From: Acidobacteriaceae bacterium
Lineage (GTDB): Bacteria > Acidobacteriota > Terriglobia > Terriglobales > Acidobacteriaceae
Assembly (NCBI GenBank): GCA_003134995.1
Contig: PLDC01000018.1
Span: forward strand, 1 to 64,000
Direction of reading: 5' to 3'
Length of the DNA: 64,000 nt
Under the pieces are notes generated by a model, which saw only the letters and a list, made by a program, of their open reading frames with translations, had not been told where the DNA came from and made no database searches. The translations under genes were made by a program, and so were the position numbers. Within the stretch, counting starts at the first letter, position 1, and each line of letters opens with the position of its first letter. Shown one piece after another: positions 1-18,885 of this stretch.

Positions 1-42
1 TTGGTCGTTGGTCGTTGGCCAACTCAAAGGCAGAGTCAAAAC

Positions 43-581: not shown

Positions 582-634
582 GCGGCTAAAGTCGCGATTA
601 ATTTCGAGGCATTTACGGCGCGGCTGAAGCCGCA
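582..634. repeat. Pair of GCGGCT-AAG-CGC palindromes
   Basis: Two near-palindromes, GCGGCTAAAGTCGCG (582-596) and GCGCGGCTGAAGCCGC (about 618-633), lie about 20 bases apart in the 720-base non-coding lead-in to the first kinase gene. Each can form a short hairpin. They look like dispersed repetitive palindromic elements. A similar unit, GCGCGAAGGCGCG, occurs near 31580. No gene is visible between 1 and 721. Confidence 0.45.
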
Positions 635-721
635 CCATTTCAAAGCGAATTCGGACTGGGACGCTACCAGTTCATCGCTTTCATTGACTTGACTGTTTCA
701 CAGACGTAGGATTTTGCTCTT

Positions 722-3475
<2,754 letters not shown>

Positions 3476-3615
3476 GTCTGCTTAAGAGGATACGAAGGAA
3501 GACCGCGGCGCTTTGACGGCATCTCGAGTCTCTGGAACGGCCCTGAACCCCTAGCCGCGCCGCAAGTCCGTCACCCCGGCTGCGATCCAAACTCGCGTGT
3601 TCGTCGGCGGCCCGA

Positions 3616-4028
3616 TCATCCCCGCAAGCACTCCAGCAAAACGCGCACCAGCGCCGCATCCGCGTTGCCTTCGATGCGCACCTGCGCTTGCCGCAGTTCG
3701 ATGTGAATCGTGCCCGGCTGTGCTTTCGGAAAGTCGGCGGACCCGCGCACCGGCAGAGGCTCCGGCACACTCTCATTCACCCGAACCGGCAGCAACTTCA
3801 TGGCCGGCTTGCGCTCCCCAGTCTTCCCGCCTGGTAGAGCCGACGCCAGCCAAATACCTGGTTCGCGTTGATCCCATGCGCCCGCGCTACCCGCGCTACC
3901 GACGCGCCTTCCACCAACGTCTCTTCGACGATCCCCCGCTTCTCCGCGATACTGCGCCGCTGCCGCGGAGCTGCGACTGACCGCTCTCTGACTCTGGGAA
4001 TGAGTGTAACTTGCTGGGAAGTGTCCAT
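3616..4028 (-). pseudogene. IS66-type tnpA (HTH accessory protein), frameshifted remnant
   Basis: The N-terminal part (ATG at 4026-4028) encodes a helix-turn-helix protein with EKRGIVEETL and INANQVFGWRRLYQAG, typical of the OrfA/TnpA accessory protein of IS66 elements. It stops at 3798. The expected C-terminal half (LLPVRV, then IHIELRQAQVRIEG and ALVRVLLECL) follows in another frame and ends at 3616, so one base has been lost or gained near 3820-3830. The IS66 partners tnpB and tnpC should follow at lower coordinates but are absent; the DNA between this gene and the kinase stop holds nothing recognisable. This is therefore a relic and not a functional element. Confidence 0.75.
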
Positions 4029-4037
4029 CTCCGCTCC

Positions 4038-4066
4038 AAGTGGACGCCTAACCTAAGTGTCCACTT
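4038..4066. repeat. Palindromic candidate IS end (left)
   Basis: AAGTGGAC at 4038-4045 and GTCCACTT at 4059-4066 form a perfect 8-bp inverted repeat around a 13-base loop that contains CTAACC. The site lies just upstream of the tnpA start. A related palindrome with GGTTAGG in its loop region occurs at 10314-10344, at the far side of the beta-helix/FG-GAP gene block. Both may be transposon termini; the family is not identified. Confidence 0.4.
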
Positions 4067-4069
4067 CGG

Positions 4070-4440
4070 GAGAATGGCTCTTAACTACGAGGATGTCCAA
4101 ACGGCCATCACCGTACGCTTACCGAAAGTCTGCGAATTGGGGCGGCCCAAGGTCAACCGCGGAAGGGTCTAGTCCATCAATGACTATCTGCACCGGTCGA
4201 TCATCACCGTAAAATTTGACCTGCATCAGCGCCAGAATGGCCTCCATCTTGCCCGATCCAGCCCTCATCTCGAGAAAAGTACAGCTCGGGCGTGCGAATA
4301 TGCCGAAGAGCTAGCGGCGCTCGACAAAAAAAGCTCACCGAAAGGTGATCTCCGAAGCTCTCTGAAACCAACGTCAGATACACTCAGGTACCACGAATGT
4401 CATACACTGACACCAATTGTCGCCTGATTCGCAAAGCTTA
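4070..4440. other. Gene-poor stretch with an unassigned minus-strand open frame
   Basis: No complete gene is recognised here. On the minus strand an open stretch of roughly 65 codons (about 4310 to 4115) reads through MEAILALMQVKFYGDD and VIVIDG-like segments. That resembles protein-coding sequence, but it has no plausible start and no family I can name. It may be a relic of a gene disrupted together with the neighbouring transposase. Confidence 0.25.
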
Positions 4441-4444
4441 CGCC

Positions 4445-5887
4445 CTAATAAGGTACCGCCGTCCATGTCGGAGTCGTACCGGCTGCACAAACCCATAAGG
4501 GGCTGCCACTCCCAGTGTTTGAGAACAGACTGCCCGCCGCACATCCCGTGGTACCTGCTTGTGGTGCTGCGGTTCCGACGGCCCAAGTCGGCACTGACGA
4601 ACTAGTTGTAAAACGCGAATACCCGTGATTCGAACTGCCCAAGGCATACATGCCGAGATATGGATCGGCCGGGGCGGACAGTTTCGTTAGAGTTTCCTCG
4701 TCGTCGATAGTAAACGTATGGCAAGGCACTCCATGACTTGGCGTGCATAAGTTGGTTACACCTAACACGACTAGGTCGGTGACCGGATATGCAGCATTCG
4801 GGATGTAAATCGTGGCATCGTCCTGACTTGGTGGAGTAGTATCTGTCACGTTCACTATCGAGTTGCTAGATGCGGTTCCGTTCATTCCGAGAGCGATTCC
4901 ATATTTGAAACCTTGGATCACGACATCCTCTACTGAATTACTGGAAGAGTCGATTTCGATGCCTGCCGTTGCGGACGTGTCGCTAGAAAGGCAACTAATG
5001 CCGTGAATCCCCTTGGTACCACCTACATTGAGAATCTGCGCACACACGGTTCCTGTCGATGATCCGCTCGTGACATCGAACGTAATGTTCGAATATGGTC
5101 CCGAATTTAGTGCTCCAGATCCGGATACTAACAACCCGGTTCCCTCAATCCCGTTCATCCCGACATGGTTTATATAGCTGCCTTGGCCCGAACTGTTGTT
5201 AAGTATGCCAGAGATCGTCGTTTGGTTTCCACCTAGAAGAGTCAGATTCTCAATCGTAATTCCCGTGCACGGCGAGCAGGTTGACGACCCCATCGTTAAC
5301 ATCGTGTAAGCGGCCGAGACGGTCGGCGCAACGAGAACCGTTTCTATACAGAGCGTCGTGGAACTGCATCCGCTGTAATTTATTGTCCCTGAACCAAGCC
5401 CTGTCCCGGTGCCGATGAGCCGGGTCTGATTTGGTATAACCCACGCTGCGGACATGTAAATCGCAGCCGCAGGAAGCAATATAGACGCGGGCACAGCGCT
5501 GGTCGCGCCGCTCCACGGAGTTTCTCCGCTGTTGCAGGACAGGCTTGTCACGCCGCGCGCGTCCACAACTCCGCTCGCCGTCGGAATCGTTCCCCTACTC
5601 TTCATCGTTGATAACAAGTTCAATGCCGCGGAAATACGGCCGCAGATGGTCGAACTGTATCCGGTGGCAATCTTGAGTGTGCTCGCATCGATGATCGCTA
5701 GTGAGGGCGTTTGAGCCGAGCATACCGACCCTGTCGTGCAAATTGCCTTGAGCCCAGGAGTCGGGCTGACAAGTGGAACTTGCGCTTTGAGCGTATTTAA
5801 GCCCGTTAGACTCATCAGGAAGATCAGAAAAGCCGCCAGCCGAGATAGCTCACGGTGAGGAGAAGATTGTCTCTCGATAGTTGTCAT
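4445..5887 (-). CDS. Secreted parallel beta-helix (pectate-lyase-like) protein, paralogue A
   Basis: 480 residues, starting at ATG 5887 with a GAGGG ribosome site about 7 bases upstream. A hydrophobic signal peptide (about residues 15-35, ending near LKAQ) precedes a long Ser/Thr/Gly/Asn-rich chain with short repeating strands such as ITIENLTLLGG and GIHGISCLSS. That pattern fits a right-handed beta-helix of the pectate lyase/GH28 fold. The C-terminus is a small cap (AAGSLFSNTGSGSPLWVCAAG) also seen in the two neighbours. I see no catalytic signature that would name a sugar substrate, so enzyme activity is not claimed. It is the only complete member of three tandem paralogues and the most likely to be functional. 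It is presumably exported and acts outside the cell. Confidence 0.72.
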   Translation of the reverse strand: MTTIERQSSPHRELSRLAAFLIFLMSLTGLNTLKAQVPLVSPTPGLKAICTTGSVCSAQTPSLAIIDASTLKIATGYSSTICGRISAALNLLSTMKSRGTIPTASGVVDARGVTSLSCNSGETPWSGATSAVPASILLPAAAIYMSAAWVIPNQTRLIGTGTGLGSGTINYSGCSSTTLCIETVLVAPTVSAAYTMLTMGSSTCSPCTGITIENLTLLGGNQTTISGILNNSSGQGSYINHVGMNGIEGTGLLVSGSGALNSGPYSNITFDVTSGSSTGTVCAQILNVGGTKGIHGISCLSSDTSATAGIEIDSSSNSVEDVVIQGFKYGIALGMNGTASSNSIVNVTDTTPPSQDDATIYIPNAAYPVTDLVVLGVTNLCTPSHGVPCHTFTIDDEETLTKLSAPADPYLGMYALGSSNHGYSRFTTSSSVPTWAVGTAAPQAGTTGCAAGSLFSNTGSGSPLWVCAAGTTPTWTAVPY

Positions 5888-5925
5888 AGCGACCCTCGTT
5901 TGTCAGTTGTAATGGCTGACGTTGC

Positions 5926-6858
5926 TCAAAAGAGCGTGATTGGTGTCCACCCGCTTGTCGTGCAGCCCCACAGAGTTGTTGTTGTCGCGATGGTGGAGGT
6001 GCAGCTGCCTCCGCTCTGTTTCGTGCAACTGTAGAGGCTTCCTATGCCACACGAGGTCCCACCGGTTGGTGAGCTCGCGCCGAAGGACCAATTGACAGGA
6101 TTCGATGTAGCGCCGCTCGTTGCACCCGCCGTAGTCATCCGGGAATAAGGTGGTTGCGTACTGGTTCCAGCGGCAATCTGCTCGCCAAGGGCGTACATAG
6201 CGACGCTAGGGCCTACCGACGCCGACACCGTAGTCTGGTTTAAGTCATCTTGGATGACAGCATTGCTCGCATTTGAAGCAGCGAATATAGTGATGTCGCA
6301 GGCGTTGGGAAATGATCCCGATACAACGGGGCAGACTGACGCGGTGCTGGTATGAGCGGAAATATGCACCAGGTTCGTCACACCGGTCCCGGCCAAAATG
6401 TTGACCAATTCGTTATTGGCCGCGTACGCGTTCTGTCCAATATAAACGCCATCGGTATAGCCACTAACATAAACGTCTTCGATAGTATTGTTGGGCGCGT
6501 CCACAGATACGGCAGTAGCGCCGCCCGACATGGTTGCCGTCAGGCCGTGGATTCCGCGCGTACCTGTCGTACCTTCGATTTGCGCGCACGTGGTTGTGTT
6601 CGAGCAATAGATATTCGAATATGGACCCGAATTGTTGGCATCCCCGTTGCTAGCGGTAGTAATCAACAATCCGGTCGCCCCGGTACCAACGACATTGGTG
6701 ATACCGATATCGTTGACCAGGCTCAACTCCTCTCCGTAGTTGTTCTCAATTCCGATTGTGGCAAGACCGGCTCCATTGAGCGTAAGGTGCCAACGCACAC
6801 GTATATCGTGTTCGTCGCACCGGATGTGTTTGAATAGATAGCTCCAGATGTGGTACAA
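5926..6858 (-). pseudogene. Beta-helix paralogue B, N-terminal half missing
   Basis: The frame is homologous to paralogues A and C only from about residue 25 (position 6786) onward: LTLNGAGLATIG matches LTLLGGNQTTISG in A and LTIDGEDSATIV in C. Everything that should precede it is gone: intergenic region, ribosome site, signal peptide and roughly the first 170-200 residues. The bases just upstream belong instead to the C-terminal cap of paralogue C in another frame. This looks like a deletion that joined the tail of C to the middle of B. The C-terminal cap (GIGSLYSCTKQSGG, LWGCTTSGWT) is intact. Without an export signal it is unlikely to work as a secreted protein. An assembly collapse between similar genes would look the same. 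Confidence 0.6.
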
Positions 6859-6867
6859 GCCCCCCCG

Positions 6868-8205
6868 CTAACTGCTATTATTCCGACTCCCCAAGTGGGC
6901 ACCAATGTGGCTGCCTGCCGGATTAGTGCTGAATCGACTGTATTGAACAGGTGTTGTTCCTCCGCCCACGGGATCACCGAGAATGTACGCTCCGACGGTC
7001 CAGTTCGGGTGGGTGCTTCCACTGGGGGGAGCGATTGTCGTAGCCGTGACGTCATCGCGAATCGCGGAAACAGAGGTCCCGTAGACGGCATTTATCGAGG
7101 CTTCGACAACCGACACGTCGCTAACCGCCTCTGGTGTGCCCGAGGGGAAGCACACGTTACTTGAATTATTAGGATTGGTTCCACATATGTGCACTGCGTT
7201 CGTAGAGCGACCATCAGTAGGATTGCTCGCCGCCGTAATGTTGCCGATCGCGACACCCTGTACAGTTGACGTTGTGCTTCCCACCTGCACACCATCCCAG
7301 AATGCTTCAATGTGAACGTCTTTGACTGAATTGTTACTTGCCTGTACCGAGATTGCCGCATTCCCTTGCGTGCCGGACACTGCTGGACTACCGATGCATG
7401 AGGCTCCGTGAATCCCCCGAGTTTGCGCTTGAAGTACTACACATTGAGGGCAACTGCCGGCGGCACATGTAGGATTCGGTGCAACGACATAAATGTTCGA
7501 ATAGGCTCCGGATTGTTGAGCGTTCGGCCCGACTAGAACACCTGCCAGAGCAATATTGTTAAGCTTTACGTCGTTGACATAACTTTGATCTTGGGCGGCT
7601 AAATTATAGATCCCATTCAGGGAATGAACTATCGTGGCCGAATCTTCGCCGTCGATAGTAAGGTGCTCAACAGAAACCCCGCTGCATGGAGCTGTGGTGC
7701 TTGCGCACATCTGAATCATGGTCGAATTTGTGGCGGAAAAAATCGTTTGAACTTGTAGGGTGGCATAGGTAGTAGCGGGAAGCGGGTCGCCGCCAACGAT
7801 TCTCGTATTACTCGGCAATACCCATGTGTCCTTTATTTGAATGTTGGCTGCGGGTAGAAGAACTGTTGACGGCACTGCGACCCCAGAAAAAGGGTTGATG
7901 CTGCATTGCAGTGTATCGCCGCTAGTGGGAAGAATTCCACGCGCGTCGACTACTGCGCCTGCATAAGGAACGTATGTCGTCAAAACTGTGTTAATTGTCT
8001 GACAGATATCTCCGTCAGCAGGGTAAAACGCACTGGCATCCAAATAGGCGGTCGAAGCGACCAAGGCCGTCGAGCCGCTGCATGTCCCATAGACTGCGGG
8101 ATTGCCCTGCACACCGCATGTTTGCGCACCGGCGTGCTCGGGCAACAATAGGCAACAGGCGCAACCCACTGCTAAAACGAGGCGAACACACAGTGCTCTT
8201 CTCAT
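6868..8205 (-). CDS. Secreted beta-helix protein, paralogue C, frameshifted at its C-terminus
   Basis: The start is ATG 8205, set by AAGGAGG immediately upstream and by the signal peptide MRRALCVRLVLAVGCACCLL, which ends near EHAGAQ. Three AC-rich elements and repeated beta-strand motifs (VSVEHLTIDGE, GIHGASCIGS, NSVKDVHIEAFWDG) match paralogues A and B, so this is a right-handed beta-helix protein. The frame stops at 6868 after YSRFSTNPAGS. The expected tail (TLVPTWGVGIIAVSGGACTT, then AIYSNTSGATNTIYVCVGT) is present in another frame down to about 6786, which indicates a one-base frameshift near 6915-6925. Beyond 6786 the sequence passes directly into the middle of paralogue B. Mutation and sequence error cannot be told apart here. 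Confidence 0.65.
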   Translation of the reverse strand: MRRALCVRLVLAVGCACCLLLPEHAGAQTCGVQGNPAVYGTCSGSTALVASTAYLDASAFYPADGDICQTINTVLTTYVPYAGAVVDARGILPTSGDTLQCSINPFSGVAVPSTVLLPAANIQIKDTWVLPSNTRIVGGDPLPATTYATLQVQTIFSATNSTMIQMCASTTAPCSGVSVEHLTIDGEDSATIVHSLNGIYNLAAQDQSYVNDVKLNNIALAGVLVGPNAQQSGAYSNIYVVAPNPTCAAGSCPQCVVLQAQTRGIHGASCIGSPAVSGTQGNAAISVQASNNSVKDVHIEAFWDGVQVGSTTSTVQGVAIGNITAASNPTDGRSTNAVHICGTNPNNSSNVCFPSGTPEAVSDVSVVEASINAVYGTSVSAIRDDVTATTIAPPSGSTHPNWTVGAYILGDPVGGGTTPVQYSRFSTNPAGSHIGAHLGSRNNSS

Positions 8206-8279
8206 TGTTAAATCCTCCTTCGATGACCCTTGGAATTCAAAACTTACATACGCCGTTGTGGCTGAAGCCCTCGTTGACT

Positions 8280-9767
8280 TCATTTTTCTGTCTGCGGATA
8301 AACATTGAAGCCCGCACCACCTAGTTGAAAAATGAAGTCCAAAAGTCCATCGGAATTGAAATCCCCCGTAGCAATGCCCAATTCCCCGCTTGCAAAGGGA
8401 CCTGGAATCTTGACAGGAGTGAGCGGTTGAAAAGTCCCGTCGCCATTTCCCAGCAGGATGCCAAACTGATCCTTGACCCCAGTTTCCGAGACGATGAGAT
8501 CCGTTTTCCCGTCGGAGTTGAAGTCCCCAGCAGCAAAGCTGAATTCACCCACCGCCGAGCTTACGTTGAAGTATGCCGGCTCCCGAAAGGTTCCGTCGCC
8601 GTTGCCGAGCGAAATGCCGATGCTAGAATCCGTGCAATAGGCTAAATCGAGATTGCCGTCTCCGTTGAAGTCGCTGGCAATCAGAAGGCGGCCAGTTCCG
8701 CAGCCGCCGTACAGGGTGGTAATAGTTACTGGGGGCCGAAAAGTTCCGTCGCCATTTCCCAACGCAATTGATATGGGGTATTCCTGTTGGCCCCCCACGA
8801 CCGTATCTCCAAAAAACGCCAAGTCGAGAATGCCGTCGCCGTTGAAATCGCCCGCGACGATGTTTACTCCGCCTTCACCCTGATAGGTCGTCGATAACCG
8901 AAAGGTTCCATTGCCGTTTCCCAGGAAAACATAGTTGAAACAACAATCTCCACCAACAATGTCGAGCTTACCGTCCCGATTAAAATCTCCCGCCACAAGA
9001 TCAACTACGAGGCCTGACGGAGGGTTCCTGTACTTCCATCCCGCGTCAAAGGTCCCGTCGCCCTTGCCTAAGCTAACGGCCAAGCCCGTAATTCCATCGG
9101 CGACCTGAAAATCCGCCGCAAATGCCAAGTCTAGATTTCCGTCACCGTTAAAATCGCCGAACGCAGTCGTTATCAAGCCAGCCAAACCTGAATAGTAAAC
9201 ATCGGTTGCATTTCTTGGATCGCTAAAAGTGGCGTTGCCGTCGCCCAGGCTGACGACGATTTGTCCGCCATCAAGCCCGGCCGCGAGATCGGGTATGCCA
9301 TCATTGTTGAAATCTGCCACCAATAATGAATTCACCGGTTCGATGCCGTCGTAGTCATATTCAATCGGCGCGGCGGGCACAATCGTGGCCGTCGGCGTGT
9401 GCACTTCCACCAGACTCCAACTGGAACTGGATTCACCCCCACCCGGAGCCGGATTGGTCACGGTGATATAACCCGCCCTTGCAGTCGCCACGTCAGAAGC
9501 GAGAATTTGCGCCTGCAGCTCTCTCGCAGAAATGTAGGTGGTCGTTCGTGCCTGCCGGTTCCAGTTCACTACTGCTCCGGGCACAAAATTCGCACCGTAG
9601 ACGGTAAGAATAAATGCATCGTTACCGGGGACGACCGCCTGCGGATGAGGAGGTCCGACTACTTCCGGCACCGGATTATTCTGACCAAAAGCCACCGCTA
9701 GCAAGCTCGCGGTGAGCACTGACACTTTCAAAATCGAATTGATGAAAGCAGCTAACTGGTTCTTCAC
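8280..9767 (-). CDS. Secreted FG-GAP/VCBS repeat protein with IPT/TIG-like N-terminus
   Basis: A GTG start at 9767 is preferred because GGGAGG lies 6-7 bases upstream; an in-frame ATG at 9800 has no such site. A signal peptide (about residues 5-30, ending near LAVAFGQ) is followed by an IPT/TIG-like domain (TVYGANFVPGAVVNWN). Then come seven copies of a DFNxDGxxDL calcium-binding loop, for example DFNNDGIPDL, DFNGDGNLDL and DFNSDGLLDF, each linked to a LGNGDGTF strand. This is the signature of an FG-GAP/VCBS seven-bladed propeller that binds calcium outside the cell. Such proteins usually act in adhesion or carbohydrate binding. It follows the beta-helix genes on the same strand but has its own ribosome site. 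Confidence 0.8.
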   Translation of the reverse strand: MKNQLAAFINSILKVSVLTASLLAVAFGQNNPVPEVVGPPHPQAVVPGNDAFILTVYGANFVPGAVVNWNRQARTTTYISARELQAQILASDVATARAGYITVTNPAPGGGESSSSWSLVEVHTPTATIVPAAPIEYDYDGIEPVNSLLVADFNNDGIPDLAAGLDGGQIVVSLGDGNATFSDPRNATDVYYSGLAGLITTAFGDFNGDGNLDLAFAADFQVADGITGLAVSLGKGDGTFDAGWKYRNPPSGLVVDLVAGDFNRDGKLDIVGGDCCFNYVFLGNGNGTFRLSTTYQGEGGVNIVAGDFNGDGILDLAFFGDTVVGGQQEYPISIALGNGDGTFRPPVTITTLYGGCGTGRLLIASDFNGDGNLDLAYCTDSSIGISLGNGDGTFREPAYFNVSSAVGEFSFAAGDFNSDGKTDLIVSETGVKDQFGILLGNGDGTFQPLTPVKIPGPFASGELGIATGDFNSDGLLDFIFQLGGAGFNVYPQTEK

Positions 9768-9800
9768 TGAAACCTCCCAAGGGTTCGGCCCACAAGACAC

Positions 9801-10313
9801 TTCAACGACGCGGAGTTACTAGCAGAAACAGAAATCAATTTCCCTGAGGGGAAAGGGAAGCTGCAGCTCGTTAAAATTCAAAAGCTGCAAGATTTAGCCG
9901 CAAGTAAAGTCGGCTAGTTTGGCCAAACCTTACTTCAGTTTTCGGGTTGGTGTCAACAAAAATCCACAGCGTGAGTCGAGGTTTCGTATTCGTAAATTAT
10001 TGAAAAACGGTCGAGAAATCATCCTCGAAGGATCGCTGCTGGCGGTCACGCTTGTAATACTATGTGCTTTCATACCCTTAGCCTATTTTACAAAATCTTG
10101 CATTGCCCAGCCGAGGAGTACGCGACAGGTGCAGAATCGTCCGAAATCCGATGGTTGTGCATGGTTCTTCACACTAACCTGTCGAGACATTCACGCAACA
10201 CGGGTCTTGAGGAAGCCGCACTGTCTATCTACTGCCTTTCCATAGTGCATTCCGCCGAATATGAAACGAGCTCTGCCCCTGCTTCGTAAGCGTACGCCGA
10301 GCACCGTATTGCT
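9801..10313. other. Intergenic stretch without a recognisable gene
   Basis: About 500 bases between the FG-GAP gene and the palindrome at 10314. The open frames here have no ribosome sites, no domain and poor composition. I see no RNA gene and no strong promoter. It probably holds the FG-GAP gene's promoter on the minus strand together with decayed DNA. Confidence 0.4.
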
Positions 10314-10344
10314 AAGTGTCCACGAATCGGTTAGGTGGACACTT
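10314..10344. repeat. Perfect 10-bp palindrome, candidate IS end (right)
   Basis: AAGTGTCCAC (10314-10323) and its exact inverse GTGGACACTT (10335-10344) flank an 11-base loop, GAATCGGTTAG. The element shares AAGTG, the GTCCAC/GTGGAC arms and a GGTTAGG core with the palindrome at 4038-4066. The next gene appears to have lost its start exactly here, which supports a mobile-element end or scar. Confidence 0.45.
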
Positions 10345-11299
10345 CAGCAGATGTGGGATTGATGTTCCAGGGCACCAAACCGGCAATCCCAAGCTGCAGG
10401 CCGAGTCGCTAGTGGAAAAGGCAAATATAGAGTTTGAAATCGCCCAACTCAGGAACACTTGGCCCATCGAATTCCAGCGTCACACTGAAGATGCGAATGC
10501 GCTGATGAGCGATGCTATGACCCAATGCACCGGCTGCAGCGATGATCAAAAGGCTGAAATATTGAGGCTGTGGAGTCGCGGTCTCTACGACTTGGCTCGG
10601 CCGCCCTCAGGGAAGTTGAGCGACGACTGGGATGGAGCCAATTTAGGTGTTTCCTACGACAAGATGCGCGAGGTGATTCGACTTGCCCCAAACGAACTGA
10701 AGAACTACACGCAATTGGCGAGAGTGGTCCAGAAAGCCGGCGAGAACCCCCCTCGAAGGGCGGACCCGTCTTGGACGGTAGTCATGCGAACAACCCTTGC
10801 CGAACTTCGGGAGAAATGGGCCAATGTGGAAAGCTCGAAGACAGAACCTGACCAGAGGATCCCACCCTTAAATATTCAGGCCGTACTAACTTTGGACACT
10901 GTGTCTCGCGAATGGAAGGCACAGCAAAAACTTCCGGCCGCTGAAAGGAAAATCCGTTTGAGGGGTGACCTCAAGGAAATTGAGGACGGTAGCATCCGGC
11001 CCCAGAGCGAAGTGTTGGCCCTTCTGCCAAACAGCTTCTGGCGCGACTCATTTAAGTTCGATGCTCGCTACGATTTGGCAAGAATGTATGCGATGCGCTA
11101 CTCATTATTGAATTCACTCGATGGGCCACACAGCGATAGGACGACGAGCGCACTAAAGCAACTGAAGTCGGAATTCGCTGATGCCTTGTCCTTCGCTACC
11201 AAACTACAACGAGATAGTGTCGCGGATGATCTTAACAAGAGAACGGGGCTAAACCAACTCGCTGAGGAACAAAGGGCAGATCTTCGCAAGCTCATGTGA
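10316..11299 (+). CDS. Hypothetical protein, probably 5'-truncated at a palindrome
   Basis: A 327-codon frame of unknown family. The first 20 or so codons are made of the palindromic element itself and have no ribosome binding site. The natural protein probably began upstream and lost its N-terminus to an insertion or deletion. The remainder, from about HQTGNPKLQAESLVEKANIE on, is rich in Glu, Lys, Arg and Leu and looks alpha-helical (AESLVEKANIEFEIAQLRNT, SALKQLKSEFADALSF). It has a CTGC pair (around residue 57) but no clear catalytic motif. It ends 4 bases from the end of the convergent truncated helicase gene. If the element described at 11346-18684 is real, this gene is the chromosomal neighbour just outside it. 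Function not assigned. Confidence 0.5.
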   Translation: MSTNRLGGHFSRCGIDVPGHQTGNPKLQAESLVEKANIEFEIAQLRNTWPIEFQRHTEDANALMSDAMTQCTGCSDDQKAEILRLWSRGLYDLARPPSGKLSDDWDGANLGVSYDKMREVIRLAPNELKNYTQLARVVQKAGENPPRRADPSWTVVMRTTLAELREKWANVESSKTEPDQRIPPLNIQAVLTLDTVSREWKAQQKLPAAERKIRLRGDLKEIEDGSIRPQSEVLALLPNSFWRDSFKFDARYDLARMYAMRYSLLNSLDGPHSDRTTSALKQLKSEFADALSFATKLQRDSVADDLNKRTGLNQLAEEQRADLRKLM

Positions 11300-11303
11300 T
11301 ATG

Positions 11304-12068
11304 TCATTTATCGTGCCTCTCTTCTGAGGGCGTCAGGAGTATGTCTTGGTTGCGGGGACTGACAACACATTCCTGAATAGGGTTCACATCCTGGTATTCA
11401 TCGACGATCACATGCCGAATCCGCTCGCCCAGCCGTAGCTTCAGATCAGTGATTTGTGAAATGGCTTTCACAGCGTCTAGCATGATGGCGGAATAATCCA
11501 AGTAGCGGCGATCTGTCAGTAGTTGTTGGTACAACTTCAGGCCGTTGACCACGGAGCAACCCTTAAGTTTGGGTTCATTTAGTCTGGCCTCACGAAGGAT
11601 ATTGAGGGCGTCAATGTAATTCTTTGTGTCGATGAATCGACGCAGCACATTGCCCCTCAAATCAGTCGAAGCTGTCAGGCCAGTTTTCTTGGAGTACCGG
11701 TTGACAAACAGAACCTGCTGAACGTCGCCGAGAACGCCAAACTTGAGGAACTCGGGCACCTCGGTCTTTAGTAGGTCCAGACAGAATCCGTGGATAGTAC
11801 CCACGTACATCTCGGCCAGTCCATTAACCTCGCCAACTACTTCCGCTACACGGGTGACGATTCTATCTTTGAGTTCCGCCGCGGCCTTTTCCGTAAATGT
11901 GAACGCGACGATATTACGCGGAGCCAGTCCCGTGGTTAACCCGGTCTTTAGCAGCGCCGCCACGCGCTGTGCGACCACTTCGGTTTTTCCGGAGCCCGCG
12001 CATGCGATTAGCTGGAGATTTCCTGGTGGCCATCCGATCGCTTCTGTTTGTGCGTCGGTAAACTTCAT
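11304..12068 (-). CDS. UvrD/Rep-type helicase, N-terminal fragment only
   Basis: 254 residues with the N-terminal hallmarks of superfamily 1A helicases: a Q-motif (TDAQTEAI), Walker A CAGSGKT at 23-29, motif Ia (VAFTFTEKAAAELKDRI), motif Ib-like GTIHGFC, and motif II VDEYQDVNPIQE around 222-233. Family members run 500-700 residues. This frame ends about 20 residues after motif II with an unrelated tail, so motifs III-VI and the second RecA domain are missing. The start is well supported by AGGAGA 5 bases upstream of ATG 12068. The truncation point falls within about 15 bases of a 12-bp copy of the tRNA-fMet 3' end (11346-11357), suggesting loss at the element boundary. It cannot be an active helicase on its own. 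A relic of a defence or replication gene is possible but not shown. Confidence 0.75.
   Translation of the reverse strand: MKFTDAQTEAIGWPPGNLQLIACAGSGKTEVVAQRVAALLKTGLTTGLAPRNIVAFTFTEKAAAELKDRIVTRVAEVVGEVNGLAEMYVGTIHGFCLDLLKTEVPEFLKFGVLGDVQQVLFVNRYSKKTGLTASTDLRGNVLRRFIDTKNYIDALNILREARLNEPKLKGCSVVNGLKLYQQLLTDRRYLDYSAIMLDAVKAISQITDLKLRLGERIRHVIVDEYQDVNPIQECVVSPRNQDILLTPSEERHDK
11346..11357 (+). repeat. Candidate distal attachment site (tRNA-fMet tail copy)
   Basis: TTGGTTGCGGGG is identical to the tRNA-fMet 3' end at 18673-18684 in the same orientation. Its position next to a truncated helicase gene and about 7.3 kb from the integrase fits the far end of a tRNA-targeted element. Confidence 0.5.
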
Positions 12069-12631
12069 GACTATCTCCTAACAGGCGGTTGGAAGGCAAC
12101 CCGCGATATTTCCATCAACTTCAAGCGGCGACGACCCACTACAGTCCAGTTCCAGCCTACATAAAACGATCAGAGGCCAGAATTGTGGACGGTACAGGGA
12201 TCAGGCGGGAAACTATCTGACAGCCGCAACAACTATTACGCCTCTCGCATTGGATCTGTCTAGAGGCACATTCGTGCCAGGTCCGTAGCCCCAAAGAGGC
12301 ACGGACGATCTGTTTACGCTGGCTTTCCCAACGGCAGCCTTTAGGTCCGAGGGTCCGATTCGCCCTGGAGAGGGGTCTGACTCGATGCCAGCGTCTTTTT
12401 GTGGCAGTTGTGGGAATAGTTTCGAAAACTCGTTCCTGCGGTGCAGCCGTGCGACTCACTCGAATCAGGGCTTCGTGGCCAGGAATACGAATTGCCCGAA
12501 AACACCTGATTATGGGCGGCTAGTATCAGGGAGTTCTTACCCCACGATTTCAATTACTTGTCGGGGACTCGCGCGATGAGGTTTTTGGGCAATATCTGAA
12601 GACCGCGTGAAATCCTGAAACTCCGACTATC
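12069..12631. other. Gene-free stretch inside the putative element
   Basis: About 560 bases between the helicase start and the end of the next gene. Apart from the AGGAGA ribosome site of the helicase gene near 12073-12078, I find no convincing frame, RNA or repeat. Short frames are present, but their Arg/Ser/Cys-rich composition looks non-coding. Confidence 0.4.
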
Positions 12632-13324
12632 TTATTGAATCGGGCTTTCTGGAGTTGATTCCACGAGATCGATTGCCCGCGCAGCCGTTTCGCGGAGACT
12701 CGCTGTCACCAGGCCAAGGGGTAACGCGCACTCTGGCCAGCGGAGTTTTCCATCTTCACCTGCGATTCCCAATCCAGGCACCCTGTCGCGGACCATTTGA
12801 CCCGGGTAGGTAAAGAAGAAGAATGAATGTCGCCCATCCCTGTCCCAGAAGATGTTCCCCAGTTCGATTTGTTTAGCCTTCGCCAGGGGGCGGAGTTGGC
12901 TCGCGATCAGCACTTCTGACTGTTCCGTCAATTCTAATGCGACGATCTGCTCGGCTGTTTCCACTGTAGCAGTCAGATACAGCATTAGGTTCTTTCCTTC
13001 CTCGCCTAGCCGACATCTCGTCACAAGAGGACTCGCCGGGAAATTGAGGTCTGCAGCAGACAGGAGTGCGGTCGAAAAACAGTCGAGAATGTTTCGGGAG
13101 ATTGAGCAAAACTCCGGTAGCGGATTTCCCTGGAAAACATGTTCAGAATAAACAAACCGCTTGGGATCAAGTCCCAAGAATGAAGGCTTCAGGATGGGGT
13201 TGAGTAGCCCCTGTTCCAGTTCCTTCTTCCAGTCGTCCAGAAATTTGTCCTTCTCCGCCCCCGAGAGTTTTGGATACCTGGGCTCGAACTCTTTGGTCGG
13301 CTTCGGATTTGATCGTTCCGGCAC
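12632..13324 (-). CDS. Hypothetical protein, unknown family
   Basis: 230 residues, probably cytoplasmic: no signal peptide or membrane helix. The N-terminus is charged and helical (EKDKFLDDWKKELEQGLLN). The middle has alternating strands (NLMLYLTATVETAEQIVALE) and an aromatic stretch FFFFTYPGQMVRDRVPGLG near residues 169-187. I recognise no catalytic motif and make no functional claim. It sits between the truncated helicase and a DUF932 gene, all on the minus strand, within the putative integrative element, so it is likely mobile-element cargo. Its length, composition and lack of overlap suggest a real gene. Confidence 0.6.
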   Translation of the reverse strand: MPERSNPKPTKEFEPRYPKLSGAEKDKFLDDWKKELEQGLLNPILKPSFLGLDPKRFVYSEHVFQGNPLPEFCSISRNILDCFSTALLSAADLNFPASPLVTRCRLGEEGKNLMLYLTATVETAEQIVALELTEQSEVLIASQLRPLAKAKQIELGNIFWDRDGRHSFFFFTYPGQMVRDRVPGLGIAGEDGKLRWPECALPLGLVTASLRETAARAIDLVESTPESPIQ

Positions 13325-13384
13325 TTTTGCCTTTCACCAGCAGCAATTGTCGCTAGGACGGCTTTCGCCGGCTCGTTGCCTTAC

Positions 13385-14410
13385 CTAGTTAGCCCACGCC
13401 TTTACACATTTCTCCGCGACGGTAAAAGCTCGCACCTTCGTCGAGTATCCCTCGCCGAACCAGATTGTGTTCAACTGGCGATCGTCGCTAGCTTTTTCAA
13501 ATCGGCGGTAGTCAATGTATTCCGCGACGCCGTTATACGCGGCCCAGAGGCTTCCTTTCACCTCCGCCTCGTCATTGCCGCGACCTTGATCAAAGAGATA
13601 CGCTGAGCCTTCGCGATCGTATTTGACCTGTTCTAAAGCGCGCTGATACCGGGTTTGATCTTGGCGTTGCACTGGGTCAGGAAAGACTCCCTTAAGGTAG
13701 TCGTCAAGCTTGCCTTTATTGACCCGCACCTTCGCCATGCTCTGGAACACGGTTGCGAGTTCGTCATAGTGGACTTGAATCCTCTTCAGGAGATTCTGCG
13801 CGATCACCAGTCGTTCTCGCAGGTCTTTGCTATGTGCGATGCGGAGGGTTGGACCCTGGCTCAGTGCTTGTATCAGTGTATTTTGGCAAACGACTCGGAC
13901 GGGCGTGAACTTGATCTGCACCGCGCTGGTGCCGTCGTGGCTGTTACTCAAGAGCAGGTACTTATTGGTGATGTCATCTCCGATAACGCGAATGTCTTCA
14001 GGCAGTTTGGCAAGAACCCAGACGCGCTCGCCCTTCCCCAGAGCGCCTGCCGTGTGGTACGCGGCTGCCTTCCGGCCCACGATGGGGTCGAAGAAACCGA
14101 ATGCCTCCTCATTCTGCAGCGTCTGGTACGCGTCCCCCACAATGCCCAACACTCCGTCATTCACGCCAGAACTCCAATCGTCGCGACGCCATACGTCCTC
14201 CCGGACAACAGCCCAACGCTTAGCCAAAGGACGATGTTCGCGCTCGCCAACAAACAACGGCAATTTGCTGACCTTCCAATCAAGGCCCGCGTGTTTGATA
14301 GCTTCGGCCGCGGTTGCCGGGGCGTCTAGTTGCTTGCCCAGACGATGCCAAGCGGGACCAACCGTCATTACGGCAGCCGTTCCGGTCGTCCGGTCTATGT
14401 TAGCGGGCAT
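13385..14410 (-). CDS. DUF932 phage/plasmid-like protein
   Basis: About 341 residues from ATG 14410. This start is chosen because family members begin just before the conserved segment (here MPANIDRTTG... GPAWHRLGKQL); a GTG at 14455 is possible but neither has a strong ribosome site. Conserved family features seen are PAWHRLG near the N-terminus, VVGDAYQTLQNEEAFGFFDP-like text (here GIVGDAYQTLQNEEAFGF), KYLLLSNSHDGT, and VRVVCQNTL followed by a helical C-terminus. The molecular function of DUF932 proteins is not established; they are typical of plasmids, phages and integrative elements. The gene is divergent from a small XRE regulator, which could control it. Confidence 0.85.
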   Translation of the reverse strand: MPANIDRTTGTAAVMTVGPAWHRLGKQLDAPATAAEAIKHAGLDWKVSKLPLFVGEREHRPLAKRWAVVREDVWRRDDWSSGVNDGVLGIVGDAYQTLQNEEAFGFFDPIVGRKAAAYHTAGALGKGERVWVLAKLPEDIRVIGDDITNKYLLLSNSHDGTSAVQIKFTPVRVVCQNTLIQALSQGPTLRIAHSKDLRERLVIAQNLLKRIQVHYDELATVFQSMAKVRVNKGKLDDYLKGVFPDPVQRQDQTRYQRALEQVKYDREGSAYLFDQGRGNDEAEVKGSLWAAYNGVAEYIDYRRFEKASDDRQLNTIWFGEGYSTKVRAFTVAEKCVKAWAN

Positions 14411-14594
14411 GAGGAAACTCGATTGAGAGCGGAAAGGAATGACAAATGAAAACACAACGACCAGAATCCGTCAGTGCACACAACTGTCGTAAAGAAGTCA
14501 CCATAGTGGAATTGGCATTTGCGGCGCGCCGGGGGCCACGGTTATGTCTGGGATGCCAGACACACGCCCGCAATAGTATGCCCACCATGGAAGC

Positions 14595-14819
14595 ATGTCC
14601 AGCGGCAATCATGCCCTTTTGGTCCTGTTGGGCAAGCGCATTCAGACGCTTCGAAGATGTAAAGGATGGACACAAACCGACATGGCAGTGTATCTGGACA
14701 TGAACCGGGGACACATCTCAGACATCGAGAGGGGCAAGCGTGAACCAGGGATTATCACCTTGCAGGTGATTGCCCGAGGTTTGGACACCACGATGGCTAA
14801 GCTACTCAAGGGTCTGTAG
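14595..14819 (+). CDS. Small XRE-family transcriptional regulator
   Basis: 74 residues, essentially one helix-turn-helix domain of the HTH_3/Cro-cI type: RIQTLRRCKGWTQTDMAVYL, then NRGHISDIERGKREPGIITL for the recognition helix and the conserved acidic turn, ending in LDTTMAKLLKGL. It should bind DNA as a dimer. It is divergently transcribed from the DUF932 gene and convergent with the serine recombinase, so its likely targets are the intervening region near 14410-14595 and the element's own genes. No ligand domain is present, as in many phage and plasmid repressors. Confidence 0.82.
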   Translation: MSSGNHALLVLLGKRIQTLRRCKGWTQTDMAVYLDMNRGHISDIERGKREPGIITLQVIARGLDTTMAKLLKGL

Positions 14820-14862
14820 AACCGCCCGGAAATCGTTCCCGCATACCGTGCATCAAATCCAC

Positions 14863-15504
14863 CTAGACAGTTTTGGGAAAAGATGCAAAAGCCCGCTGCG
14901 CTGTTCCCTTGCTCACTCTCAGTTCGGTCTGGATTTGCGACCACGAGTCCCCGCGAGCGCGAAGAGTGGCAATTCGTGAGGCGTCAACAACGACTCGTGG
15001 CCTCCCCAGTCGTCTCCCTTTGGCGCGTGCATTCCTTAGGCCCGCACGAACCCGTTCCTGAATAAGAGCGCGCTCAAATTCTGCCATTGCGCCAATGATT
15101 TGAAACATCAAGCGCCCGGAAGGCGTACTCAGGTCGATGTTGTCTCTTAGACTAACGAAAGCCACTCCCAGTGCTGAAAGTTCAGCGAGAGCATTAACCA
15201 AGTGCTTCAAAGACCTCCCAAAGCGATCGATCTTCCAGACCAGAACTGCGTCAAAGCGGCGACGGCAAGCATCTGACATCAGCCGATTGAGCGCTGGACG
15301 GGATTCCTTGCAGCCGGAAACGCCTTGGTCTGTGAATTCTTCAACGACCTCCCAACCGCGGCGTCCCGCATATTCGCGCAATTCGGCGAGTTGCATTTCG
15401 GGGTCTTGATTGTTGAGGGTGCTGACTCGAGCGTAGAGAGCCACACGAGCGATCGGTTGAGTGGATTCTTGAGCGAAAGTGGTGGTACGTTGCTGTCTAG
15501 CCAT
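14863..15504 (-). CDS. Serine recombinase (resolvase/invertase family)
   Basis: 213 residues from ATG 15504, set by AAGGAGG just upstream. The catalytic domain starts VALYARVS with nucleophile Ser28. It continues with QLAELREYAGRRGW, the GVSGCKESRPALNRLM segment, VLVWKIDRFGRS (active-site Asp/Arg) and the long helix FQIIGAMAEFERALIQERV. The C-terminus has a GRRLGRPR arm and a short Hin-like HTH (SWSQIQTELRVSKGTAQRAF). It is the size of resolvase/invertase enzymes, not large integrases. A perfect inverted repeat lies in its upstream region (15539-15568), which could be a crossover or operator site. It is part of the putative element next to a tyrosine integrase; such pairs often combine integration with dimer resolution or inversion. 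Confidence 0.9.
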   Translation of the reverse strand: MARQQRTTTFAQESTQPIARVALYARVSTLNNQDPEMQLAELREYAGRRGWEVVEEFTDQGVSGCKESRPALNRLMSDACRRRFDAVLVWKIDRFGRSLKHLVNALAELSALGVAFVSLRDNIDLSTPSGRLMFQIIGAMAEFERALIQERVRAGLRNARAKGRRLGRPRVVVDASRIATLRARGDSWSQIQTELRVSKGTAQRAFASFPKTV

Positions 15505-15538
15505 GGTCTGCCTCCTTATTAGGCGACTTTTGGTTAGG

Positions 15539-15568
15539 GCTGGATGGGTGCTAGAACACCCATCCAGC
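15539..15568. promoter_or_regulatory. Perfect 12-bp inverted repeat in divergent promoter region
   Basis: GCTGGATGGGTG (15539-15550), a 6-base loop CTAGAA, and the exact inverse CACCCATCCAGC (15557-15568). It lies between the divergent recombinase gene (start 15504) and a small gene starting at 15677. A second short palindrome GCTTGCACGCAAGC lies at 15631-15644. Position suggests an operator, a resolution site or an RNA hairpin in the recombinase leader; the sequence alone does not decide. Confidence 0.45.
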
Positions 15569-15676
15569 TCGTTCTCGGTGACGGAGGAAATTCTATGCGT
15601 ACAAGCACGCATTGTCAAGTTTAACTGCTTGCTTGCACGCAAGCCTTCATGAAAGACTCTTTGCGAAGGAAGCTAA

Positions 15677-15814
15677 ATGACGAAAGCAAAGGATTCCTAC
15701 GCGGTGGAGTTCGCGCGCAAGGGCGGTAAGGCGCGAGCTAAGAAGCTCACAGTTGAAGAGCGCCGAGCCAGCGCCAAGAAGGCTGCTGAAGCACGCTGGG
15801 CCAAGCGACGTTAG
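15677..15814 (+). CDS. Small basic Lys/Arg/Ala-rich protein (45 aa)
   Basis: A 45-codon gene with a GAAGGA ribosome site 6-8 bases before ATG 15677. The product begins MTKAKDSYAVEFARKGG, continues KARAKKLTVEERR and ends KKAAEARWAKRR. Such short, strongly basic, helical proteins with a KGGKARAKKL motif recur in soil-bacterial plasmids and chromosomes and are probably nucleic-acid binding, but no function is established. It follows the inverted repeat at 15539-15568 and overlaps the 5' end of the next frame, with which it may be translationally coupled. Confidence 0.5.
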   Translation: MTKAKDSYAVEFARKGGKARAKKLTVEERRASAKKAAEARWAKRR

Positions 15815-17201
15815 CTATTCGAGATGCGAATTTGGGACCGTCGCCAAAGAGCTACTGGAGAGTGGAAACTTGCACAGCCCGGATCCCTCGAAGCGCTTCA
15901 TCAGCGCCGCGAAACAGGTCATTGATGTCTGGCGGCAGCTCGACCCCAGATACAACCGATTGGTCAAGCTGAAAACCCAGGCAGCGGCCAAACAGCTTCG
16001 CAAAGAAGTCAAAGCTGAAAGAATGCAGATTCTTTTCAGGAACCGAGGGAACGCAAATTCAGGCATCATCCCCGGTGAAATTCTTGCAATGGAACTGCGT
16101 AAGATCGACGCTTGGGCCGCACGGTATTACTCAATCTATTGTGAGGTGTGGGAACTGCAAGGAAATAAGAAATCTGCCGCTTTGGTGCGAACAATTTACA
16201 CCCATTTCCTGAGAAAGCTCATTGCAGTTAGAAAATCGTCGGTGACTCACGAAGCGCAGCGCTCAGCTTGTGCTAGAGGACGGTTCGATAGTATCGCCAG
16301 GCTGCGGATCGAGTCTTTCAAGCGTTCAGCAGATCAATTGAGTTGGGATTGGGCGGGAAAGATAGAAATCGAGGCATTGGAGCTTGAGGCTCGTGCCCGC
16401 GTAGAAAAGTCGACAAATCAAGCATTGTTCATTTCGCGGACCGGCGAAGAAGGCAGGGCTGGTGCCGAAAGCACGCCTCATCGCGCCCCAACAAAGGGAA
16501 CGATGATGCCAGAGAAACCGTCAACAAGGACTACAGGGCCATTGAGGCCGGAAAGCATCAACCCAGTAACACCAAACACCAAAGCACGAAAGCGACTTCC
16601 AGGAGCAACCATCTACGGAGTGCGACCAGACAGCAATGAATATGTGGCCTGGGACGGCGAGCAATATGTGTTGTATCAAACAAAGGAAAGGGTCTTGGCC
16701 GACGATAGCTTGATACCCATTGGCAGTGTGCAGGAGCTGAGAGTGGATCATCCGCACCCTGGGCCGGTGGATCGGGTTGAGGTGGTGATTCCTACGCCAC
16801 AACTGAAAAATGGACACAGAGAATCCCAAGCCGGGGTTCCATTCCCGCATCCGATCCCTCTCTCAACATTCGAAGCTAAAGTCGGCGAGTTGATGGTAAA
16901 AGCACGAACGGCGAGTGCGACAAAGTACCTTCCTAAGGCTGAAATCTTGAAAATTGCTACTTTGCTCGATGATGCAAAATTGCCAGTTCGGAGCAATCTG
17001 GAACGTGAAGCCGCCCGAATCATGGGCGAATACAACCAGCGACACCCCACGGCTGCAATAAAGAGTTGGAAAGCCGCATTTAATCATCCTCAGTTCCGAC
17101 GTGCCGTCCGAAAGCGGTTTTCGAGAGCAGAGGAGAAGTACAAGAAAGCAACTTCGCACGTCCCTACCGTGTCCGCGGGATCTCCTCGGACAGCTATCTA
17201 G
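15753..17201 (+). CDS. Hypothetical element-borne protein, start uncertain
   Basis: Up to 482 residues, hydrophilic and mostly helical. The N-terminal 230 residues are Lys/Arg/Ala-rich with long helices (LVKLKTQAAAKQLRKEVKAE). A central part has a compact predicted domain (GATIYGVRPDSNEYVAWDGE, then QYVLYQTKERVLADDSLIPI). The C-terminus (KYLPKAEILKIATLLDDAKL, HPTAAIKSWKAAFNHPQFRR) is again helical. I recognise no family. The first ATG (15753) lies inside the preceding small gene and lacks a ribosome site, so the true start may be a later GTG or TTG. It is followed after 290 bases by the integrase gene and belongs to the putative integrative element. Confidence 0.5.
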   Translation: MKSAEPAPRRLLKHAGPSDVSYSRCEFGTVAKELLESGNLHSPDPSKRFISAAKQVIDVWRQLDPRYNRLVKLKTQAAAKQLRKEVKAERMQILFRNRGNANSGIIPGEILAMELRKIDAWAARYYSIYCEVWELQGNKKSAALVRTIYTHFLRKLIAVRKSSVTHEAQRSACARGRFDSIARLRIESFKRSADQLSWDWAGKIEIEALELEARARVEKSTNQALFISRTGEEGRAGAESTPHRAPTKGTMMPEKPSTRTTGPLRPESINPVTPNTKARKRLPGATIYGVRPDSNEYVAWDGEQYVLYQTKERVLADDSLIPIGSVQELRVDHPHPGPVDRVEVVIPTPQLKNGHRESQAGVPFPHPIPLSTFEAKVGELMVKARTASATKYLPKAEILKIATLLDDAKLPVRSNLEREAARIMGEYNQRHPTAAIKSWKAAFNHPQFRRAVRKRFSRAEEKYKKATSHVPTVSAGSPRTAI

Positions 17202-17488
17202 CATTTGCCCCCTTCGTCGCTGCAGTCGCTATTTTCAAGCACCTTCTTTGTCCGGCGGACAAATTCGGACAATTTTCAGCGTTTACAAGCCAACCTAATC
17301 GGGCCTAAAGTCGCGCTATCCGAACGCGAAAGTTTATGTTCGGACAGCAGATCTATCTCGTGATCTCGGACCGTTCAAAACTCGGGCTCGTGGCGACTGG
17401 CGGGACTACCGCACCTTTTGCACGCTGTGGTATTGTTTCGGACCAGGCGAACGCCGGCGCGTTTTCTTCAAGAGAGGAACTTGAAAAA

Positions 17489-18667
17489 ATGGCGCGCCGA
17501 AGGTTTCAACGCGGTAGTGTACTGCTCAGAGGTAAGCGTAAGCAGAAATGGGTTGGCCGCTGGAGGGAAGATGTTATCAATTCAGAAGGCCAACTGGTAC
17601 GGATCAACCGTAAGGAAGTCCTCGGAACAAAGAGCGATTTCCCCACCAAGAAACTGGCGATGCGTGAGTTGGAATTACGGATCGCTCCAATTAACAACGT
17701 CAACTATCGAGCCTTAAGATCGGCAACATTCGCTGAGTTTGCAGCAATTTGGAAGAATAACGCTCTGACTCAGCATAAACCATCAACGCAGCTTGCGGTT
17801 CGGAGCCAGCTCAAGAAATGGCTGGTCCCCTACTTCGGGAGTTGTGCCATGAGGGAAGTCGGAGGACAAACGGTCCAAATGTTCGTCCAACGTTGCTCTC
17901 TGGCTCCAAAGAGCTGCCGAAACCTAGTACTCACACTTCGGATGATGTGGAGTAGCGCCAAAGCTTGGGGCTATGTCTCACACGATCCATTTGAAGGACT
18001 CGTGCTTCCAAAGGTTGCGCGGCAGGCGCGGTTCTTCTTCACGCTGGATGAAATCCAGCGGATCATCGCTGCGGCCAGCGGGCCATTGAAATCCTTCTAC
18101 TGGCTGGCAGCCGAAACCGGAATGCGGGCTGGAGAATTGTGCGGTTTGCGAATCGAGGATGTGGACTTGGGGCAATGCTTCGTCAACGTTAAGCAGTCAG
18201 TCTGGCGCGGCAAACTTCAAACCCCAAAAACAGCGAACTCGATTCGGCAGTTCGCCATCTCTCAAAAACTCGCCTCTCATCTCCGTGCTTACCTTTCGAC
18301 GTGGCGACCGAACCTGTTGAATTTGGTGTTCGCCACCAAGAACGGAACGCCGTGGGATCAGAATCTAGTCGTGAAACGGAAGCTACACCCGCTGCTCGAA
18401 TCCCTCGGGGTTCAGCGCTGCGGGCTTCATGCATTCCGACACACAAACGGAAGCCTGATGGACAGGCTCAATGCGCCCATGAAGATACGCCAGGAGCGAT
18501 TCGGACACGCTCCCGGATCGAACCTCCTGCTTGGCGTCTACACTCACACCGTTGAGGAAGATGACAGGCTGGTCGCCGAACAATTGGGTGAGATGTTGTG
18601 TCCAAATGTGGCCAAGTTGGCACAAGAGAAAACCTTCGCAGAGAGCGAAGGCGTGGTGATTCAGTAG
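17489..18667 (+). CDS. Tyrosine recombinase (phage-type integrase)
   Basis: 392 residues from ATG 17489, chosen because AGAGAGGA lies about 10 bases upstream and the protein begins with the usual basic arm-binding segment (MARRRFQRGSVLLRGKRKQK). It has an AP2-like N-terminal domain, a SAM-like core-binding domain (about 78-165) and the catalytic domain. Catalytic residues visible are Arg213 (ETGMRAGEL), Lys247 (PKTANS), His314-x-x-Arg317 (HAFRHTNGS), His340 (RFGHAPGS) and nucleophile Tyr351 (GVYTHTV). The gene ends 6 bases from the 3' end of the tRNA-fMet gene. Integrases next to a tRNA 3' end normally catalyse insertion of their element into that tRNA, so this is very likely the enzyme that mobilised the 11.3-18.7 kb region. 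Confidence 0.93.
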   Translation: MARRRFQRGSVLLRGKRKQKWVGRWREDVINSEGQLVRINRKEVLGTKSDFPTKKLAMRELELRIAPINNVNYRALRSATFAEFAAIWKNNALTQHKPSTQLAVRSQLKKWLVPYFGSCAMREVGGQTVQMFVQRCSLAPKSCRNLVLTLRMMWSSAKAWGYVSHDPFEGLVLPKVARQARFFFTLDEIQRIIAAASGPLKSFYWLAAETGMRAGELCGLRIEDVDLGQCFVNVKQSVWRGKLQTPKTANSIRQFAISQKLASHLRAYLSTWRPNLLNLVFATKNGTPWDQNLVVKRKLHPLLESLGVQRCGLHAFRHTNGSLMDRLNAPMKIRQERFGHAPGSNLLLGVYTHTVEEDDRLVAEQLGEMLCPNVAKLAQEKTFAESEGVVIQ

Positions 18668-18673
18668 GTTAGT

Positions 18674-18750
<77 letters not shown>

Positions 18751-18885
18751 GTTCGATCATAATCAATGGCATCGCCATCGTCAAACTGCAGAACCTGAAC
18801 ATGGATTGACTTTCGCTGCCGCTGTGCCCGATGGATTGTGCCCGGGGCCTTGCTTACGCGGGAGTTTCTGAAGAACAGGCTGTGG

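Follow-up and report, generated by a model that had tools for sequence, protein, structure and literature searches.

A genomic island in the tRNA-fMet gene of an Acidobacteriaceae bacterium, with a probable far end on another contig

Where does an integrative element end when only one of its borders is plainly in view? The question is raised by a tyrosine integrase gene that lies against the 3' end of a gene for initiator tRNA, tRNA-fMet, in an Acidobacteriaceae bacterium (assembly GCA_003134995.1). The stretch that was analysed, i.e. the window, is 64,000 nucleotides long and corresponds to bases 1-64000 of contig C25 (PLDC01000018.1) of this genome, which has 5.62 Mb in 29 contigs and is labelled G000 below. 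The initial annotation of the window had proposed a 7.3-kb element stretching from the tRNA to a 12-bp copy of the tRNA tail at 11346. The element is probably larger than 7.3 kb. We consider it likely, on sequence comparison, that what the window contains is the integrase-side portion of a genomic island in the single tRNA-fMet gene, that the copy at 11346 is an internal scar, and that the far end lies on contig C22.

The tRNA-fMet end of the island and its counterpart on C22

The target gene, tRNA-fMet (CAT), lies at 18674-18750 on the minus strand (ARAGORN); positions within it (nt) follow the linear numbering of its 77 nt. A search of G000 with these 77 nt gave one full and one partial match. 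The gene is presumably an initiator tRNA, as by eye it has three G-C pairs closing the anticodon stem and A11-U24, which we take to be the relevant criteria. The integrase occupies 17336-18667 on the plus strand, with a start probably at 17489 (PF00589, 1.6e-16; phrog_1, 7.5e-52), and its open reading frame ends 6 bp from the 3' end of the tRNA, just as first annotated. The residues R, HxxR, H and Y, which we take to be the motif of such enzymes, are kept in an alignment with relatives read by eye, and the integrase looks still functional. In other words, an intact integrase set against a tRNA 3' end, as in tRNA-targeting islands of the tyrosine-integrase type, is present.

The partial match lies at C22:840-892. 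It is 96% identical over nt 25-77 and exact from nt 32, so that a 46-bp exact copy (nt 32-77, C22:847-892) corresponds to a putative attachment (att) core at 18674-18719 on the minus strand of the window, a shared block of the anticodon-loop class. The sequence TTGGACACAACTTGGACACA is found 85 bp before the C22 copy, at C22:742-761, and its integrase-side counterpart is the arm-type doublet TTGGCCACATTTGGACACA at 18615-18597 (minus strand). The pattern common to both, TTGGMCACA-N0-4-TTGGMCACA, occurs at exactly two places in the assembly, i.e. 18597-18615 and C22:742-761. A reversed control pattern gave zero matches genome-wide, and the doublet was found nowhere else in the window. Among the 196 loci examined it was present in eight, all of them overlapping the same two places. 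C22:742-892 therefore combines a displaced tRNA fragment with matching arm sites, and it is the probable right attachment site (attR) because the only other arm doublet and the 46-bp core are found there. The orientation is consistent as well, since the island, followed from the tRNA, leads to the first base of C25, and on C22 the copy has its element side turned towards the beginning of that contig.

The proposed course of events is as follows. At the anticodon loop of tRNA-fMet the integrase would recombine the gene with its attP; the 3' half brought by the element would keep the essential tRNA intact, and the original 3' half, displaced to C22, would mark the far end. Such an island would extend from 18673 leftward beyond the contig start (window position 1, where the sequence leftward of the tRNA runs out) and end at about C22:847, with the left site (attL) at 18597-18750 and attR most likely at C22:742-892. 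The sequenced part of the island would then amount to 18.7 + 0.85 kb, plus a gap of undefined size. The island is best read as composite and partly decayed.

The tRNA-fMet site across the genus

The site was compared among 45 genomes, labelled G000, G001 and so on (loci carry the letter L). We call the genus Sulfotelmatobacter-like, since those close integrase relatives that have a name come from metagenome-assembled genomes labelled Acidobacteriaceae (palsa_252, SbA1) and Candidatus Sulfotelmatobacter. The 45 genomes included no relative above 90% identity. Matches to the 77-nt gene were found in 41 of the 45. The full exact gene is listed in 27 genomes, single in each except G063, which has two. 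Near-full copies (88-95%) occur also or only in G003, G004, G065 and G017, and G015 has one at 99%.

Displaced 3' copies, which start at nt 24-35, reach nt 77 and measure 43-54 bp, number 39 in 23 of the 45 genomes by a hand count from partial rows. This count excludes three copies that a contig end truncates or probably truncates (G002:C149, G020:C292, G065:C122), nine fragments short of nt 77, and five with later starts (nt 41, nt 51 and three at nt 57, in G033, G063, G002, G016 and G022); contig ends were verified only for displaced copies whose stretch was examined. Within the examined stretches 23 partial copies, including two truncated at a contig end, were re-read with at most four edits in nt 35-77; the likeness of these copies is built in by the edit limit, and diverged ones are missed (that of G025 and one each of G003 and G004). 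We note separately three tRNA-tail copies of 21 nt (nt 57-77), at G016:C106:47241-47261, on G002:C152 and on G022:C4, which possibly represent another class of crossover, close to the T loop.

Thirty of the loci examined have a full or nearly full tRNA, 25 of them with at least 196 bp downstream. A whole or partial integrase relative lies within 1.5 kb in 16 of these 25, the window counted, and nine are without one. The frames used as queries for this count are 22-31% identical to the known integrases by blastp, the best E value of each ranging from 4e-13 to 2e-20. The closest relatives stand beside a full tRNA-fMet in G001, G003 and G066 and beside a displaced copy in G004, G006 and G011, i.e. 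the related integrases have the same target. Among 15 more distant integrases (at most 35%), ten are beside Glu, Val, Arg or Asp tRNAs, two at tRNA-fMet or a contig-cut copy (L017, L016), one at another CAT tRNA (L018), and for two no tRNA was found. A scan of the genome contigs for integrase relatives gave 33 loci. Three of these are close (L123-L125, 41-44%) and have just the integrase in common with the window element; the others, at 28% or less, were left out. Judged from these sequences, tRNA-fMet is an island hotspot in the genus. The initial annotation had called initiator tRNA an unusual integration target, a view that the 39 displaced copies and the 16 integrase-bearing loci do not bear out here.

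Arm-type sites were compared in the same set. Relatives show a layout similar to that of G000: next to the G001 integrase stands the 17-mer AACTTGGGCAAAGAATC, and the same word is met again, directly oriented, ahead of displaced copies in G006, G064 and G004, though here integrase and distal end come from different genomes. At distal ends with this G001-type arm site the tRNA copies start at nt 28-29. For 21 displaced copies 150 bp of upstream sequence were at hand, and the tRNA flank of the same genome was comparable for ten. A shared word of at least ten bases was seen in four of the ten, direct in G000 and in one copy of G064, inverted in G012 and G014.

Two further loci deserve mention. 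At L075 (G006:C868, 2121-3153) a chimeric, frame-broken integrase carries second-type arm sites: it is 88% like the integrase of the window over 210 residues and then, in another frame, 92% like that of G004 over 156. This fusion inside the integrase gene is a case of decay by fusion in a relative. The integrases beside tRNA-fMet in G025 and G014 (L021, L035) are 97.5% identical, whereas the 5' flanks are about 84% identical, a difference that points to recent transfer.

The 12-bp tail at 11346 and the competing explanations

The sequence TTGGTTGCGGGG is found exactly at 11346 (11346-11357, minus strand) and at 18673 only. In the latter copy the first T lies outside the tRNA, so that the tRNA part is 11 bp (nt 67-77). 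An order-2 Markov model predicts 0.002 exact same-strand matches in 1-18672. Next to the copy lies a fragment of a UvrD-type helicase, about the first 236 residues (11358-12068, minus strand; PF00580, 3.2e-36), whose relatives have open frames of 922-1025 residues. Homology ends at 11361, 3 bp short of the 12-mer, and five relatives (37-62% identical) extend beyond this point. The recurrence of the tRNA tail in the same orientation where the helicase is cut, as initially described, was thus confirmed. A query with the G163 relative located the C-terminal half nowhere else in the genome, its best match being 32% within a resident helicase frame of 922 residues; this DNA has therefore been lost, unless it lies in an assembly gap. 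A resident chromosomal UvrD was considered and rejected: the two other copies in the genome match at just 30% and 39%, for which reason the helicase of the window is taken as foreign.

A site scan of the window revealed no arm-type site of the window's type near 11346. The length of this copy fits a J-class block, but arm sites do not accompany it, and at 12 bp it is not the nt 32-77 block of the anticodon-loop class. The only 3' fragment of the tRNA seen elsewhere in the window is thus 12 bp long; the full-type one is on C22, and C25 comes to its end before that could be reached. As 11346 has acceptor-strand letters only and no arm doublet, it should not serve the integrase in the ordinary way; it is a junction or scar, and probably not attR. 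The scar could have been left by a deletion that ran from within the helicase into an older att copy and removed the C-terminal part. Of the original proposal, integration into tRNA-fMet stands, with related integrases there or at displaced copies, and the 7.3-kb extent is not supported, given the 12-bp length and the missing arm site.

The alternative that survives best, doubtful as it is, is a tandem array, in which an element reaching from 18673 to 11358 has lost its distal end, a second island runs from the left of 11346 to C22, and the 12 bp are the att remnant between them. A displaced copy followed by an integrase does occur in G004, G006 and G011, and in G011 about 17 kb with an own integrase separate the tRNA (30014) from the copy (12764). 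A deletion ending within the intervening copy would also account for a 12-bp remainder. However, neither an integrase nor a window-type arm site was recognised directly left of 11346, and the C22 doublet matches the integrase side of the window, not a second type.

The 7.3-kb unit itself (11358-18673) would need a 12-bp att site and a crossover at the junction of T stem and acceptor, the J subsite of Islander. The 12-mer begins exactly where the 3' strand of the acceptor does (nt 67), and it lies at the helicase cut; J-type islands are common in Islander, 1836 of 3919 (PMC4383910). The three 21-nt copies in the genus also speak for it, the G016:C106 copy being 116 bp from an integrase end. Still, we regard this reading as improbable: 11346 is without a nearby arm site, it is C22 that carries the matching doublet together with a full core, a genuine end has no need to interrupt one of the element's own genes, and distal ends with G001-type arms have copies from nt 28-29. 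A chance match of 12 bp beside an unrelated deletion in the helicase is very improbable, for although the Markov model gives any 12-mer of tRNA-fMet 0.075 expected hits on the same strand of 1-18672 (18.7 kb) and near matches to TTGGTTGCGGGG with at most two mismatches are at chance level (10, both exact ones counted, vs 7.3 expected), the exact tail is expected only 0.002 times and lies 3 bp from a truncation point set by helicase relatives.

An island that ends on C22 has several points against it, too. The doublet pattern was built from the two sites, so its uniqueness is no independent test, and in a 200-bp comparison an 11-mer of G024 ties with the own-genome word. The reading presupposes that C25 and C22 are neighbours, and C22 opens inside a tRNA-Ser copy related to C1. 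The first 1-4 kb of the window are chromosome-like in GC content, kinase gene and dispersed repeats, and the deletion history of the scar is inferred, not observed. Finally, six of the ten comparable displaced copies share no word of at least ten bases, and two of the four that share one have it inverted; because of these inverted matches we grade the C22 reading slightly lower. Such misses would arise from arrays of several elements, and equally from a wrong main idea.

Gene content, flanks and relation to known systems

The interior genes are as initially claimed according to Pfam, i.e. DUF932, XRE, a serine recombinase and two unknown genes. Beside the integrase lies a protein without assigned function (15753-17201, plus strand), part of which has a 32% relative by an integrase at tRNA-Glu in G014. 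It is followed by a serine recombinase of the resolvase/invertase type (14863-15642, minus strand; PF00239, 1.8e-49), an 86% relative of which comes after an integrase in G011. Further left are an XRE-type helix-turn-helix regulator (14595-14819, plus strand; PF01381, 1.1e-11), a DUF932/TIGR03299 phage- and plasmid-like protein (13385-14455, minus strand; PF06067, 3.5e-55; TIGR03299, 3e-65) and a 230-residue protein (12632-13324, minus strand) with no Pfam, PADLOC, PHROG or NCBIfam match. No phage structural or conjugation/transfer genes were recognised among the eight proteins scanned, and much of the island may lie outside the sequence covered. The helicase fragment was also considered as Gabija GajB. 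It matches GajB profiles at 1.1e-25, RTasHel is equally good at 3.6e-26, the gene is cut, and no GajA profile match was found among the other five window open reading frames scanned; a defence-system reading is not supported.

The DNA left of the scar (1-11345) carries a kinase, three genes without a Pfam match, an FG-GAP gene and an unknown gene. GC content is 0.50-0.57 over 4.0-18.5 kb (0.50-0.55 over 4.0-11.3 kb) and 0.55-0.60 in 1-4.0 kb, and the first 700 bases carry repeats that are scattered over the genome. It may be that the first 4 kb are chromosomal, and the island membership of 1-11345 is uncertain. Across the 45 genomes, the left flank 10316-11345 has, besides its own-genome copy, just matches of 58-62 bp in five other genomes. 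These fall on 10316-10377, which, like 3600-4080, has by eye the look of an insertion-sequence remnant.

On the other side of the tRNA, window 18672-18789 matches two relatives (L082, L084), and DinB comes next. At 18751-18790 about 38 bp of the conserved tRNA 5' flank are kept, followed by the DinB-aminotransferase locus. A Dps gene lies at most 1.5 kb upstream of tRNA-fMet in 20 of 28 other loci (L050 is outside this list). The Dps gene of G000 is on C20, and G000 is not the sole case without one at the tRNA. The 5' flank is thus rearranged in this genome. A simple inversion was considered as an explanation of the DinB neighbour and rejected: the DNA right of Dps on C20 is unlike the examined DinB loci of relatives.

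Regarding the C22 side, ExoIII and ABC-F genes and a Vsr/ATPase/DNA-methylase module occupy 893-9300 (L073), with matches mostly of 88-94% in other species. In G035, G018 and G003 such matches lie on the contig of tRNA-fMet, within about 1-31 kb of it, which is how shared island cargo would look. Among the matches listed, the best ones of exoIII and ABC-F are mostly 88-94% identical between species (one exoIII match at 82%) and occur in part of the genomes only, as against about 75-83% for the aminotransferase and Dps blocks; for this reason they are probably cargo. G035:C8, where tRNA-fMet is followed by a C22-type flank with exoIII and ABC-F, was therefore rejected as an empty site. The initial annotation had suggested a search for empty sites in relatives, and none was demonstrated: the 5' flank is rearranged and the genes of the C22 3' flank are cargo-like. 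A separate observation concerns C22:1-183, the 3' part of a tRNA-Ser that is 96% identical over 183 bp to C1:415139-415321. Another integrase lies near the C1 copy, and tRNA-Ser is a possible second tRNA hotspot.

We give an even chance to a broader picture in which the usually single-copy tRNA-fMet permanently serves integrases of several types as a docking site. Elements would pile up there, exchange their integrase and arm modules and decay through fusions, and the 3' half of the gene would be repeatedly replaced by element-borne copies; here, the tRNA and about 38 bp of its old 5' flank would have been relocated with the island. Foreign DNA would thus repeatedly rewrite half of an essential gene and leave its sequence unchanged. 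The locus also suggests that a short terminal repeat by a tRNA can be a decay scar instead of an element end, and that the true end can be indicated by arm-type sites, even where it lies on a different contig. For Acidobacteriota, it also provides a clear example of an initiator tRNA that serves as a hotspot for islands.

The island is of a known class whose attP is centred on the anticodon, class A of Islander. As in that class (PMC4383910), there is a tyrosine integrase, a 3' tRNA fragment at the probable far end and a crossover that would lie near the anticodon loop; unlike it, the target is an initiator tRNA, the probable far end is placed on a different contig, and an internal scar of the 12-bp tail is present. 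The same text counts 125 tandem arrays of two or more and separates CAT tRNAs into initiator and others; an initiator count was not found in it. In Sinorhizobium meliloti, as far as the accessible text goes (PMC11476347), several elements likewise use essential tRNA genes as docks, but tRNA-fMet genes are mostly prophage cargo and are not named as a hot spot; one prophage sits in gene 045, which is compared there with Met/fMet genes. That islands favour tRNA-fMet as a hotspot in Acidobacteria was reported nowhere in the accessible portions of PMC4741004, PMC9897764, PMC11476347, PMC12429752 and PMC4383910, which is no proof of absence. The island PYG1 of Pyrococcus yayanosii (PMC9897764) is similar in that about 21 kb are enclosed by a complete and a partial tRNA, with direct repeats of 44 bp, and differs in being archaeal, in its tRNA-Gln target and in having both ends mapped on one chromosome. 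A tRNA-targeting island is, in short, of a known kind, and the initiator-tRNA hotspot in this genus is the more notable part.

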